Assembly (NCBI GenBank): GCA_028150825.1
Contig: JAOGIM010000001.1
Coordinates: 124,001 to 188,000 of the forward strand
Direction: 5' to 3'
DNA: 64,000 nucleotides
DNA from: Paracoccaceae bacterium
GTDB taxonomy: Bacteria > Pseudomonadota > Alphaproteobacteria > Rhodobacterales > Rhodobacteraceae
The position numbers were made by a program, and so were the translations under genes. Shown here piece by piece: positions 25,074 to 32,310 of this stretch (position 1 is the stretch's first letter; every line of letters starts with the position of its first letter). A model generated the notes under the pieces. That model had not been told where the DNA came from, searched no databases, and was given only the letters and a program-made list of their open reading frames with translations.

Positions 25074-26629
25074 TTAAATAAGAGTTCGAGCCTTGGCTGA
25101 AAATGCTTCGATTAGACCATTTTGTAAGCTGCTACGTGTTTCAGGATGACGCTCCAATGCGCCGTAAGTTTTTGCCAATGCGTAAAAGTCAGAATTCAAT
25201 GCCTGAACCACATTCGGTGCAATTTGCGCTGCAATCATGCTGTACTCAATAGCTTTTAATTTCTGGTTGTCCCACAGCAAAATTGGCAAGTTAAGTCCTA
25301 ATTCCACAGTGACCCCAAGCTCAGACAGCGAATATTAGAAGCCATAATCACCAGTAATAGCAAGTATTGGCAAGCCAAGCCTTGGCACATTTCCCCCGAT
25401 CGCGGCCGGCAAAGCATAGCCCAGCGTTCCAAAGCCAAGAGGATGATGCCAATGTCCCGGACGCGGCATATCCCAAATTTCTTTCGCCAGATAAGCAAAT
25501 TGGGTCATATCAAAGTATATCGTTGCCTCTTTAGGCATGACGTCCTGCAGAGCTAGAAAAATCTTAGCAACTCCAAGAAACTCAGCTTCAGCCTGTGACC
25601 ACCAAAGTTTGCGATCATTGGCAATGGCGTCGTATGCCCATAAACAGGGTTGGGCCTGGTCGGGTAACCGTTTGACTAATTTGGGGACGAAATCTTCTGC
25701 ACGCACCAAAATTCGCAAATCTGCACGATGATGGTCACTCAGCGCTTCCGGATCGACATCGACTCGCACCATTGGTGCTTTATGGCCCAGTTCGCACCAC
25801 CAAATATCAACTTCGCCTAACTCGGAGCCAATAACAACCACCAGATCAGCCTTAGCAATTGTTCAAGGTGACCCTGGCCGCGCCAAAGCAGAGCCCATAT
25901 ATTTCGCACGATTTCCCTCAATTAACCCACGCCCACAAAAAGTAGTGAAAAACGCAGCACCACTCCGTCGAACCAATTCTGTAATATCTGTTTTGATTGC
26001 ACCGCCACCCAAGATAAAAAGTGACTGACGCGCGTCGCACAACATTTCTGCCGCGCGCTCAATCCCCTTAGGATCGTTAAGAGCGTGTCAAACATTTGGA
26101 CGTGGGGTCGGGGAACTCGGGGACATGTGCCTCAAGTTGAAAAATGGAAACCTGAATATGTTTGGGGCGTGCCCGATTTGCTGCAAATTCTTCAAAGGCT
26201 TGATGCAAAAGCCCATAGGCGGCCTGCGCACTATTAGCTGTCAATGACCATTCACATACCTCATCAGCAGCACCCTCTTGATCCAGCATCTGATGTAGTT
26301 GCCCTCGATGCGCTGCGACCTCGTCTAAACAGGATGAGATGACAAGCATTGGCACTCTGTCTGAATATGCCTGCCCCATTGGTGTCATGATATTACAAAG
26401 ATAAGGCACAGTGATCACATAAGCTACGCCCAGCTAGCACTCGCTCTGGCATAGCCGTCCACCATAAAGCCGGCACCTTGTTCACGGCGCGCCAGAACAT
26501 GAGTCAGGCCAGCCTTTTCAATACCGCGATAAAGCTCTTGATTGTAGACACCGGGAATACCAAAATAACTCTGATATAAGGGCTTTTTAAAAAATGCGAA
26601 ATTTGCGCCCCAAGTGTACGGCTTGTCAT
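25074..26629 (-). pseudogene. Thiamine-diphosphate-dependent decarboxylase (acetolactate synthase superfamily), degraded
   Basis: Four or five collinear ORF fragments in several frames: MTSRTLGAQISHFLKKPLYQSYFGIPGVYNQELYRGIEKAGLTHVLARREQGAGFMVDGYARAS; LCNIMTPMGQAYSDRVPMLVISS; LFILGGGAIKTDITELVRRSGAAFFTTFCGRG; GFGTLGYALPAAIGGNVPRLGLPILAITGDYGF. Confidence 0.9.
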
Positions 26630-28130: not shown

Positions 28131-29249
28131 TTATCCAGAATGAATCAGGGTCGAAAATAGCTTGGGGTCGATCGAATTAAGCGCGAATGTAGGACCTTCA
28201 GTAAGCACAGACACAGCATCATGGCTGTGCAGGCTCTCCTGATGACTGGCCATGACGCGAAAATCACCAATCCTTTCATCTTTCGTCAAAACTTGGCAAA
28301 AAAGACGCGCAGCATCTTCAACAAATATAGGATTTGCAGCGTTTAGCTCGGCAAAGGCCTGCTCGTCTTCGCGCTTGACCATAACTTGCGTTTCGGTGGG
28401 AATTGCCGAGCGACAAAGTTCGACAAGATCCTCAAACCACAAAACGTCATGATTATTTAAAACAACAGATATCCGTGCAACCGACCTTTGCGAATGTGGT
28501 GTTGCCAATCGGTTGCGCGACTGGCGTGCATGCTCGCTTAGTTCAAGAGAACAAGGGCATGTTGAGCTATAGACATAATCCAAATGCAATATCTTTGTTC
28601 TAACCCCATCGGTGTCGACCACCTCTAAAGCCAGATCATAATACTGATATCCCGTCAGGCCAGAACGTAAACTCGATACTTTTATGGGAAAGGAAATCCG
28701 CATCTGAATGCGCGCATCAAAACTGTCCAAGTCGCGTTTGTAATCATCCAAGGCGGCCAAGATAACTTCAAAGCTGAATTGCTTTTCCGCATGCTGGTAA
28801 AAACTGCGCATTATGCGGGACATGTTGATGCCCTTCTTGTCTGCCTCAAGACTGACTGTGCCTGTAACCGAAGTTTGCAGAGTTTGGTTTGCGCAGTCGC
28901 GCATCTTGTAAGTTAAAGGCAATCTAAAATTTGATATACCAACATGTTGAATTTGACGGTTTTCGCCACGGATGAGAGAGCTGGGACCATTCTGGAGGTC
29001 AGGCATAGTTTGGAGATAATCTTCAGCTGGCGAGAATTCATTCTGATATGTATTCTCAAGCTTGGGATAGTGGGCAGAAAGAAGACGGGTTATAATATCT
29101 GTGTCCACACTATTAAGATCCTCTGGCCCTGCATTAGCCACCCAATCACGCAAAACACGCATCGCATCTTTAACTTCGTTGTCGTCGGGAAGCGTTTTTA
29201 CTTCACGGGTATGAATATTCATTCCGGACCCTTTCACATTATTAGCCAA
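28131..29249 (-). CDS. folE2: GTP cyclohydrolase IB (FolE2)
   Basis: TSVTGTVSLEADKKGINMSRI; YSSTCPCSLELSEHARQSRNRLATPHSQRS. Confidence 0.95.
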   Translation of the reverse strand: MANNVKGSGMNIHTREVKTLPDDNEVKDAMRVLRDWVANAGPEDLNSVDTDIITRLLSAHYPKLENTYQNEFSPAEDYLQTMPDLQNGPSSLIRGENRQIQHVGISNFRLPLTYKMRDCANQTLQTSVTGTVSLEADKKGINMSRIMRSFYQHAEKQFSFEVILAALDDYKRDLDSFDARIQMRISFPIKVSSLRSGLTGYQYYDLALEVVDTDGVRTKILHLDYVYSSTCPCSLELSEHARQSRNRLATPHSQRSVARISVVLNNHDVLWFEDLVELCRSAIPTETQVMVKREDEQAFAELNAANPIFVEDAARLFCQVLTKDERIGDFRVMASHQESLHSHDAVSVLTEGPTFALNSIDPKLFSTLIHSG

Positions 29250-29351: not shown

Positions 29352-30526
29352 TCATTCTAAAGCCTGTACAATATTTGCTATTAAATCTCCAGAATCCTCT
29401 TGACCTACGCTAAAACGGATAAGACTGGTCGTTATTGAAAGCAAGCCCTTTTACCGTTCGCTTAGTCGTTGATGCGTGGTTGAAGCTGGATGCGTGTAGA
29501 TTGATTTTGAATCTCCTAAGTTATTGGCGATAATCCCAACTTATATTGCATTCAAAAATTTAAATTCAGCTTCCCGACCACCTATTAGGTCAAGCGCAAT
29601 AACTGTAACCGCACCAGAGAGTTGTTCGTTAACAGTTTTATTTTGCGGGTGTGACACATGTCCAGGATAGATCATTCGTTCAAGCGCACTATTGCCGTTC
29701 AAGCCTTTTGAGATTTGTACAGCAGTTTCCGCTTAGGCCCGAACCCTTAATTCAATCGTTTCCAACCCTTTCAACATTATCCAGGCGTTAAATACGCTCA
29801 TTGCTCAACCTTTGTGCTTTTAAAATATTTCAAGTGTTTTGGTGATGAATTTCTTTGTTCCTAGCACAACACCACCGAGCAACTGCCCTTGACCATCAAT
29901 GTGCTTCGTGGCTGAATAAATAACGACACCTACGCCAAGTTCAATGGCATTTGAAAACAGGGGTCATAAAGACATTATCAACGATCATAATGGTGCCCAC
30001 ATCAAAGGCTAGGTGCGCGACCGATGCAGTATCTATTACTTTCAGCGTAGGATTAGAAACTGTCTCAAAAAATACAAAACGTGTATCTGGCCTAAGAGCT
30101 TTTTCCCACTGGTCCAAATCAAGACCATCTACAAAACTAACCTCTACGTCAAACTTAGTGAGAACCTCTTCTAGCACATAAAGGCAAGATCAAAAGAGTG
30201 TACGTGATGCAACCACATGATCACCAGCCCTTAAAATCGAACAAAGCGCCCAATGCATCGCCGCCATGCCTGATGCTGTTGCAAAAGCAGCCTCCGCCCC
30301 ATTTAGAAGAGCAATTCGATCTTCACACATCACAGCTTTGGGGTTTCCGTATCAAGAATAAATAAATTCGTCATTGTCAGTTTTTAGAAATCTTTCTTCT
30401 ACTGCTTCAGCGGAGTCATATTCGAAGCCTTGTGTCATAAATAAAGCCTCGCTCACTTCGCTATATTGGCTGCAGCGCAAACCACCATGAACCATTTTTG
30501 GCACGCTTTTTTAAATTTTTTTTCAT
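29352..30526 (-). pseudogene. metZ: O-succinylhomoserine sulfhydrylase
   Basis: MVHGGLRCSQYSEVSEALFMTQGFEYDSAEAVEERFL..YS*YGNPKAVMCEDRIALLNGAEAAFATASGMAAM; FVDGLDLDQWEKALRPDTRFVFFETVSNPTLKVIDTASVAHLA; ends TSLIRFSVGQEDSGDLIANIVQALE*; multiple stops and frameshifts. Confidence 0.9.
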
Positions 30527-30593
30527 CGCAAATCTTTTGTCTTTTCAGGCACAAAAAAGTCCTAAACTCCGCCAAGCGAAAAGGGCTTTGCTA

Positions 30594-30652
30594 CTGACCT
30601 TTTAGCAGTATCTTTAAGCGTGATCTGCAATCTGGCAACAAATCTCCAGAAG
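30594..30652 (-). ncRNA. SAM-II-like riboswitch (possibly decaying) upstream of the metZ pseudogene
   Basis: Minus strand reads CTGGAGATTTGTTGCCAGATTGCAGATCACGCTTAAAGATACTGCTAAAAGGTC, resembling the SAM-II core (GAUUU..CC..UUGC..CACG..UAAA..GCUAAA AGG). Confidence 0.65.
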
Positions 30653-30806
30653 TATCAGAAACGCTAAATACGGAAAATGGTCAAGACAAAGAGAGGTCAG
30701 GCGCGTCTCATTCTCTGGCTTGCATCCCTGCCTTAACATAAAACAAAATGTGCTGACAGGGATCTTGATGGCTTTACGCAAACCCAACACCAGATCACAC
30801 CAAATC

Positions 30807-31406
30807 CTAAAGGTCGTTTAGCTGTCCATATTTTTTTATAACTGGATACTGTAGCATCATAAACAGCATAACCGCACCAGTCAGGCCGAACGTTTTGAAA
30901 TAAACCCACGCTTCACTGCTTTGGGTACGCCAGATAATCTCATTCAGAACTGCAAGAGCAAAAAAGAATATGGCAAGTCTGCTGCCAATGATCTGCCAAC
31001 CTGCATCTTCCATAGGCAACCTGTCGCCAAGTAACGATTGAATATAATTTTTCCCACGAAGAAGCCCAAAAGAGATAGTTGCACCAAACAGAACATAAAT
31101 GATCGTAGGCTTCATTTTGAAAAAGCGCTCATCGTTCAAAAAAACAGTCAAAGCCCCAAAAACAACGACAAGAGTAAGCGTCAGAACCTGCACTTTGGAC
31201 AAATGACCATTGAGCCACCAGCCAATAGCGGTGGACAAAATCATCAGCGGTACAAAAATTGCGGTTGCTTGAATGAGGCCTGAATATTCATGCCCGTAAA
31301 AGACAACTGTTTCGCCCTTGCGCCAAATAAAAACCAGAAAAAATACTAGGACTGGACCAATCTCCAGCGCGGACGAGATAAAGGAAGAATTGTTGTTTTC
31401 AGTCAT
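30807..31406 (-). CDS. yciB: YciB/IspZ-like septation protein A
   Basis: LEIGPVLVFFLVFIWRKGE...; KMKPTIIYVLFGATISFGLLRGKNYIQSLLG; start refined to MTENNN. Confidence 0.88.
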   Translation of the reverse strand: MTENNNSSFISSALEIGPVLVFFLVFIWRKGETVVFYGHEYSGLIQATAIFVPLMILSTAIGWWLNGHLSKVQVLTLTLVVVFGALTVFLNDERFFKMKPTIIYVLFGATISFGLLRGKNYIQSLLGDRLPMEDAGWQIIGSRLAIFFFALAVLNEIIWRTQSSEAWVYFKTFGLTGAVMLFMMLQYPVIKKYGQLNDL

Positions 31407-31417
31407 GAAGGTTCCCG

Positions 31418-32310
31418 CTAATTCCCAAATTCCACAAATACTACTCCAACTGCTAACATGATCATCATAACGTTGCCATAAGGTCCAACCGGCTCTTTCA
31501 AAAAAAACCACCCAATAAGAGCGGCAAATGTAATTGATGACTCACGCAATATCGCGGCTTCACCAACTTTGTCCAGTCGTGTTGCTAGCATTATTGAGGC
31601 AAAACTGAAAATAGCAATAATTCCGCTAATCATACCACGCGGCATCAATGGGCCGCCAGCCGGGCAATCGTATATTCTAACCCACCTGATAAAGATAAAA
31701 GATGGAAGAGCAATACCATCGATAACAAAGAACCAGACAATAAGAATAAATGGATTAACCGCCTGACGAATTTCATGCATCGTATGCAGTTTAGAGAGCG
31801 ACGAATGCACCCGTTGCAACGGCCAACACCAGTGCCATGCTCAAAGTGTTTATAGCATTTATAATATTTAGCATATTATAAGCGGCCAGACTAAAAATAT
31901 CACCCAAAATGATAGCGATCCCAGTCCATTGCATCGCATTAAATGTTTCTTCAAAAACAAATACGCAGCAATTATTGCAAAAATAGGGGCTGTTCCTCGC
32001 TTTCCCGGGTAAACAACGGTGTAATTTCCACGCGTGTAGGATATGGCGTGAAGAGTTTTTGAATCAGGTAACTGATAAAAACACCGACCATAATGGGCCA
32101 AAGAGACGACTCAGGCCACGGTAAAACAAAAAGCGCCACTGGTAATACCATCATAAAATATCAGAAATCGATAACACCTCGCGAAAGCCAAGAATCATGT
32201 TGTCCCTTTTGCAAAGCAGCAAAAACTGCATAGAGAAACGCTGTTAGAATTGCCAGATCCGAAGTATAAATAGGTGCATTTGGCGTTCCCCCTATACTTA
32301 AAATTCACTC
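31418..32310 (-). pseudogene. EamA/DMT-family permease remnant
   Basis: PIYTSDLAILTAFLYAVFAALQKGQHDSWLSRGVIDF; MMVLPVALFVLPWPESSLWPIMVGVFISYLIQKLFTPYPTRVEITPL; ISGIIAIFSFASIMLATRLDKVGEAAILRESSITFAALIGWFFLKEPVG, in different frames. Confidence 0.82.

Follow-up and report, generated by a model that had tools for sequence, protein, structure and literature searches.

Ahead of a dead metZ gene in the window (by which we mean the whole stretch of 64,000 nucleotides that was analysed) stands a genuine descendant of the SAM-II riboswitches which no longer passes as a working member of its class. We give a probability of about 0.9 to the reading that a SAM-II riboswitch which once acted on the transcription of metZ is decaying here, the leader having been released from selection after methionine biosynthesis had been lost. 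Descriptions of riboswitch death are seldom seen, and a search of the open-access literature, limited in scope and phrases, found no paper on a vestigial riboswitch; remnants of this sort are hidden by the curated cut-offs of Rfam. Because the SAM-II class is already well known, novelty is modest, and the interest lies in a parallel decay series: at one conserved locus, six genomes of a genus carry live, weakened, eroded and undetectable copies, with the SAM/SAH riboswitch of metK as an internal control. With such a series, the order in which the parts fail becomes accessible to study, and likewise whether it is the regulation or the gene that goes first. The locus in the window consists of the following features.

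30581-30659, minus strand: decayed SAM-II aptamer, whole model match (RF00521 30.0 bits; R1 40.8 bits; 31 of 34 conserved columns unchanged)
29352-30526, minus strand: metZ pseudogene (O-succinylhomoserine sulfhydrylase), from TIGR01325, tblastn and alignment
28131-29249, minus strand: folE2, intact downstream neighbour (NF010200, 288 bits, over cut-off), in the same order in G001, G002, G004, G005 and G006
30807-31511, minus strand: ispZ / septation protein A, upstream neighbour (PF04279, 173 bits), in the same order in relatives

How can a degraded aptamer be told from a chance resemblance? An Rfam search of the window at the gathering threshold gave no match. With permissive filters, RF00521 (SAM-II, SAM_alpha) aligns over the whole model to 30582-30656 on the minus strand with 30.0 bits (E 5e-5 in 401 bp), which is below its gathering cut-off of 36 bits and thus short of the score of a working member. 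Across the 2.3 Mb genome the same model puts this site at the top (E 7e-5), with a runner-up of 16.3 bits. R1, a covariance model made from 29 intact SAM-II elements of relatives with G006 included and the window element left out, gives it 40.8 bits, the runner-up having 10.5 bits in the 64 kb and 17.3 bits in the genome. A fortuitous resemblance would be in keeping with the score under the Rfam cut-off, but the score lies nearly 14 bits over the next site in the genome, strand and spacing to metZ are correct, and the element is orthologous to the syntenic one of G006, which is over threshold with 51.9 bits. Score, position and conserved gene order taken together reduce the probability of chance to a practically negligible one. 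The string quoted in the first-pass annotation corresponds to the minus strand from 30649 to 30596, and its claims of a SAM-II match on this strand, some 70 nt upstream of the metZ remnant, hold in both models and in position: the aptamer lies 67 nt upstream of the remnant of the metZ start codon (30526-30524). The cmsearch with the Rfam model which it had proposed came out divided, with a score under the curated cut-off and yet far over the genome background. Two other matches on the leader, RF01719 (17.8 bits) and RF02931 (13.3 bits), were set aside as chance matches, their cut-offs being 50 and 55.6.

SAM-II over the cut-off is found in 236 of 298 genomes of the family, those listed mostly having about 60 bits. 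The family is taken to be Rhodobacteraceae-like from the organisms recovered with the neighbouring folE2, among them Roseovarius, Sulfitobacter and Nioella. In an earlier comparison of 15 Rhodobacterales, 14 had SAM_alpha, whose core target was metY (PMC4239095). As the first reading required, the element does occur in the leaders of relatives whose metZ is intact, with 51.9 bits in G006 and about 60 bits in most of the family. Like the SAM-II elements (RF00521) before metZ (metY) in Rhodobacterales and Rhizobiales, the window element stands before metZ, shares the GAUUU/UUGC/GCUAAA pocket and the P2 strands, and likewise has a promoter 6-12 nt upstream of P1 and a terminator ahead of the start codon. 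Unlike the family, it is under the cut-off, has a P1 mismatch, a one-base insertion and a competing hairpin, is weakened in its terminator and -10 box, and precedes a dead target gene. Parts of the aptamer are given below.

30646-30650, minus strand: P1 5′ strand UCUGG, with C at 30649 in place of a G invariant in 29 relatives
30619-30623, minus strand: P1 3′ strand UCACG, where C30620 opposite C30649 is a mismatch and U30623 makes a G-U pair
30618, minus strand: one-base insertion (C) between P1 and the UUAAA stretch, from the cmsearch alignment and a hand alignment
30631-30650, minus strand: competing hairpin UCUGG/CCAGA made by the G-to-C change at 30649, predicted by RNAfold with no pseudoknot or ligand
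30627-30644, minus strand: 5′ half of the SAM pocket, unchanged, GAUUU (30644-30640) and UUGC (30630-30627)
30601-30606, minus strand: 3′ half of the SAM pocket, unchanged, GCUAAA

All 13 nucleotides of the SAM-II pocket (U10-U12, U20, U21, G22, C23, G42, C43, U44, A45-A47; PMC3764141) are unchanged in the window element. Conserved columns, defined as those conserved in at least 90% of the 29 relatives, number 34, and the only changes among them are G11C (30649) and C37U (30623), both in P1, and G34A (30626). The P2b pairs C-G, G-C, U-A and U-A are retained. P1 now reads G-U, G-C, U-A, C-C and U-G, so that four of its five pairs are possible and the stem, already suspected of being weak at first reading, contains one C-C mismatch and one new G-U; the RF00521 alignment flags all six of its six P1 pairs as broken because it misplaces the 1-nt insertion. 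With C at 30649, moreover, UCUGG has become able to pair with CCAGA of loop L1. In RNAfold calculations, which ignore the pseudoknot and the ligand and are indicative only, the competing hairpin has a pair probability of 0.95 and P1 one of about 0 in the window element, compared with about 0.6 for P1 in G006, though P1 is also about 0 in G002, where metZ is live. Energies of P1 only, indicative under the same neglect of pseudoknot and ligand, are -3.3 kcal/mol in G006, +4.3 in G002 and +5.6 in the window element. Judged by its mismatch and its pair probability of about 0, P1 is thus not predicted to form the helix with which a working SAM-II closes its pseudoknot. The z-scores from RNAfold are uninformative for the aptamer, as expected for a pseudoknot. 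Together with the weak terminator described below, the mismatch in P1, the inserted base and the competing hairpin are predicted to abolish or badly weaken SAM-dependent control, and SAM binding would have been lost as well, although it may persist in vitro because the 13 pocket bases and 31 of the 34 columns are retained.

Outside the aptamer, the leader retains a remnant promoter and a weakened terminator.

30656-30684, minus strand: remnant promoter, -35 TTGACC (30684-30679), 17-nt spacer, -10 TTTCTG (30661-30656), from sequence reading against relatives
30553-30589, minus strand: intrinsic terminator, weakened, its basal stem with one mismatch and the U run retained, MFE -8.5 kcal/mol

A consensus promoter and terminator scan on the minus strand yielded nothing useful, and the terminator of the window went undetected in it. 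Because other hexamers ranked first in the automatic promoter scan for the window genome (G000) and for G002, the promoter register of both was set by comparison with relatives. Among 30 family leaders, TTGAC, the 17-nt spacer and a -10 starting with TA just before P1 are each found in 26; G006 has TTGACC-N17-TATGCC and G002 has TTGACC-N17-TAGCTG. By this comparison the window has retained its -35, and its -10, drifted to TTTCTG, looks weakened. A terminator between the aptamer and the start codon is found in leaders of many relatives, and its MFE, compared with the -8.5 kcal/mol of the window, is -17.4 in G006, -16.6 in G005 and -7.6 in G002, so that a weak terminator alone is not diagnostic because G002 has one as well. 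Base pairing is also possible, in the genus, between AAAAGG, the 3′ strand of P2, and CCUUUU, the 5′ arm of the terminator, and this pairing would be the antiterminator.

For the metZ SAM-II of S. meliloti, a mechanism of SAM-induced termination has been predicted (PMC9373788), and this element is alike in gene, in aptamer class and in having a terminator between aptamer and gene. By this analogy, transcription in the ancestor would have started at the first bases of P1, and when SAM was plentiful and occupied the pocket, the pseudoknot of P2 would have formed and a hairpin further downstream would have halted transcription before metZ. The lineage then would have lost methionine biosynthesis (metA, metZ and the split methionine synthase), because of which metZ died and its leader was no longer selected; the loss of selection would be the cause of the decay. 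At present the pocket bases are still there, and the damaged P1, the extra base, the competing hairpin and the weak terminator probably undermine control by SAM. Transcripts of the intact S. meliloti element, in contrast, change with the level of SAM (PMC9373788), while control in the window is predicted to be lost. Erosion of non-coding DNA along with a gene is likewise found in intergenic regions of reduced genomes, for example the spacers of Buchnera (PMC3164680); the window element differs from such spacers in being a structured RNA whose pocket bases are known, and for this reason its lesions can be read functionally.

TIGR01325 matches the metZ remnant as two halves, 217 bits each, with stops inside, and tblastn gives about 77% protein identity to the intact MetZ of G002. 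Homology is therefore recognisable while the reading frame is destroyed, by a +1 frameshift shortly behind the start codon, the loss of 2 bp near 29957, and premature stop codons at seven places (30354, 30192, 29822, 29807, 29735, 29543 and 29453), which an altered genetic code does not explain because they fall at unrelated residues. Unique changes by codon position are 36/26/48 in this metZ and 14/6/40 in the intact one of G002, from which relaxed constraint is deduced; as a crude estimate, these ratios would place the death of the gene about half way along its terminal branch. Since the assembly is of a metagenome type, with 110 contigs and 62.7% completeness, metZ might be thought alive and its lesions mere assembly errors. 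However, a single gene contains seven premature stops and two frameshifts and shows elevated change at its first and second codon positions, folE2 and ftsY nearby are intact, and two other assemblies of the genus carry different lesions in metZ, so this explanation is very improbable.

The order ftsY-EamA-ispZ-leader-metZ-folE2 is common to the window, G001, G005 and G006, and to G002 and G004 as far as their contigs reach; the metZ locus is absent from the assembly of G003, which is 55% complete. The state of the switch and of the gene in the six genomes is as follows.

G006: SAM-II 51.9 bits (Rfam), 66.9 bits (R1), P1 intact; metZ intact
G002: SAM-II 31.3 bits (Rfam), 43.8 bits (R1), weakened; metZ intact
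G000 (window): SAM-II 30.0 bits (Rfam), 40.8 bits (R1); metZ dead
G001, L157:3970-4043: SAM-II without Rfam score, 19.2 bits (R1), eroded; metZ dead
G005, L052:1339-1416: SAM-II without Rfam score, 16.0 bits (R1), eroded; metZ dead
G004: no detectable SAM-II; metZ intact

It is to be noted that the scores of the G001 and G005 remnants lie within the genome-wide noise of R1 (up to about 20 bits), and these two were accepted by exact synteny and alignment only; each stands exactly before a metZ pseudogene. The metZ remnant of G001 was missed by TIGR01325 at E<=1e-20 and found by tblastn at the syntenic site, and a deletion of metZ in this genome was accordingly rejected. A low score alone is no proof of lost function either, because G002 with its live metZ has 43.8 bits against 40.8 for the window. 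The four C-to-U changes of G002 at conserved columns are all still paired as G-U wobbles, which suggests that its aptamer structure was still under selection. In each of G001 and G005, changes affect 9 of the 34 conserved columns and the pocket bases G22, C23 and C43 are gone; G001 retains four of five P1 pairs. Since the lesions differ by lineage, different parts of the aptamer failed in different lineages. In G004, a good sigma-70-like promoter, TTGACA-N17-TAGCTA, read by eye, is retained in the leader of metZ (C519, L047), and this metZ has possibly escaped riboswitch control.

The metZ pseudogenes of G000 and G005 have no inactivating change in common, G002, whose metZ is intact, falls with these two in one well-supported clade, and G001 is far more distant by FolE2 (76% identity compared with 85-87%). 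These facts imply that metZ died independently at least three times in the genus. Decay of this kind, which the first reading had called rarely documented, is thus not unique, G001 and G005 being two further independent cases. Which, then, went first? The riboswitch could have weakened first, by AT-biased drift or by a relaxed need for feedback, with metZ dying later, so that the decay did not come from the death of the gene. The intact metZ of G002 behind four C-to-U changes at conserved columns, the change C37U found in G000 and G002 only, and the intact metZ of G004 without detectable SAM-II all speak for this, and the last of them means that a switch can go before its gene. Nevertheless, the changes of G002 keep G-U pairing as if the structure were selected, while the G000-specific G11C breaks a pair; furthermore, by a rough estimate neutral drift since the death of metZ in G000 is expected to give about 2 changes at conserved columns, and two unique changes plus the insertion are seen, so no decay before gene death is required. 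We consider this order unlikely, though it deserves real weight. The first reading, of a riboswitch decaying after its target gene died, is supported, metZ being a true pseudogene and the element being degraded compared with an intact one; weakening of the switch may have begun before that death, as the state of G002 and the shared C37U would indicate. A wider proposition, that SAM-II control of metZ was repeatedly lost in one marine genus in differing orders (switch first, gene first or both) and that the intact pocket of G000 was locked by a single P1 mutation through the competing hairpin, is tentative, and we hold it somewhat less probable than its negation. If it is true, the order and tempo of riboswitch death could become measurable.

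The fate of the pathway can be followed in the same genomes. The MetX family (TIGR01392) is found in none of the genomes examined, and the MetA family (TIGR01001) is present in G002, G003, G004, G006, G007 and G009 and not found in G000, G001 and G005. MetH-family homocysteine and cobalamin modules, the counterparts of MtgE/MtgC, the split methionine synthase known from roseobacters (PMC12478193), occur in G003, G004, G006 and G007, and the cobalamin module in G002; neither of them is found in G000, G001 and G005, which have at most a pterin-domain match that may be FolP. Gene absences in the 62.7% complete G000 are weak when taken alone, and the case rests on G005 and G001, in which loss of the pathway, hence auxotrophy, is likely because their genomes are 96% and 84% complete; for G000 the same is suggested, and this marine lineage is thereby marked as a probable methionine auxotroph. 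G000 retains an intact protein of the O-acetylhomoserine sulfhydrylase type (TIGR01326, 573 bits), through which a methionine bypass is conceivable, and no homoserine acyltransferase was found in this genome. A fragment of a second O-acetylhomoserine sulfhydrylase lies at the edge of contig C7 (L045), near an integrase-like ORF as judged by eye, and C71 (L043) may carry the rest of this second gene.

The SAM/SAH riboswitch (RF01727), known before metK in Rhodobacterales, shares its ligand pathway and its genome with the window element, and is present in seven of seven genus members.

G000, C56:64047-64098 (L164): SAM/SAH riboswitch before intact metK, over cut-off

Unlike the metZ leader, it still exceeds the cut-off in G000 (43.6 bits), presumably because metK is still needed, and also in G001 (43.4 bits); in both it directly precedes an intact metK-like frame, recognised by eye from the sequence. 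Therefore, it is specifically the metZ leader that has decayed, and a general artefact of these assemblies does not account for it.

Might the leader still be in use, either as a SAM-responsive leader of folE2 or by giving rise to a short riboswitch RNA such as RZ of S. meliloti? Wherever folE2 is found in the genus, it is on the same strand as the dead metZ and about 100 bp downstream of it, the -35 box and the SAM pocket are retained, and the metZ riboswitch of S. meliloti does yield an sRNA (PMC9373788). Against such reuse, P1 and the terminator are broken or weakened, the pocket is damaged in G001 and G005 while folE2 is intact, and selection for a switch is not visible; we regard it as improbable, and keep to the decaying remnant.

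Some neighbouring genes are also in poor condition. Between ftsY and ispZ, the EamA-family transporter (31418-32154, minus strand) is apparently split into several short frames, of which Pfam EamA matches the C-terminal piece only. Two adjoining short frames at 25863-26418 on the minus strand match PF02776 and PF00205, the N-terminal and central domains of a thiamine-pyrophosphate enzyme, and are probably another pseudogene. In the window, 73% of the sequence is taken up by ORFs of 150 aa or longer, compared with 88% of the 13 kb taken from G006, and this low coverage together with the broken genes suggests that the lineage is undergoing gene loss.
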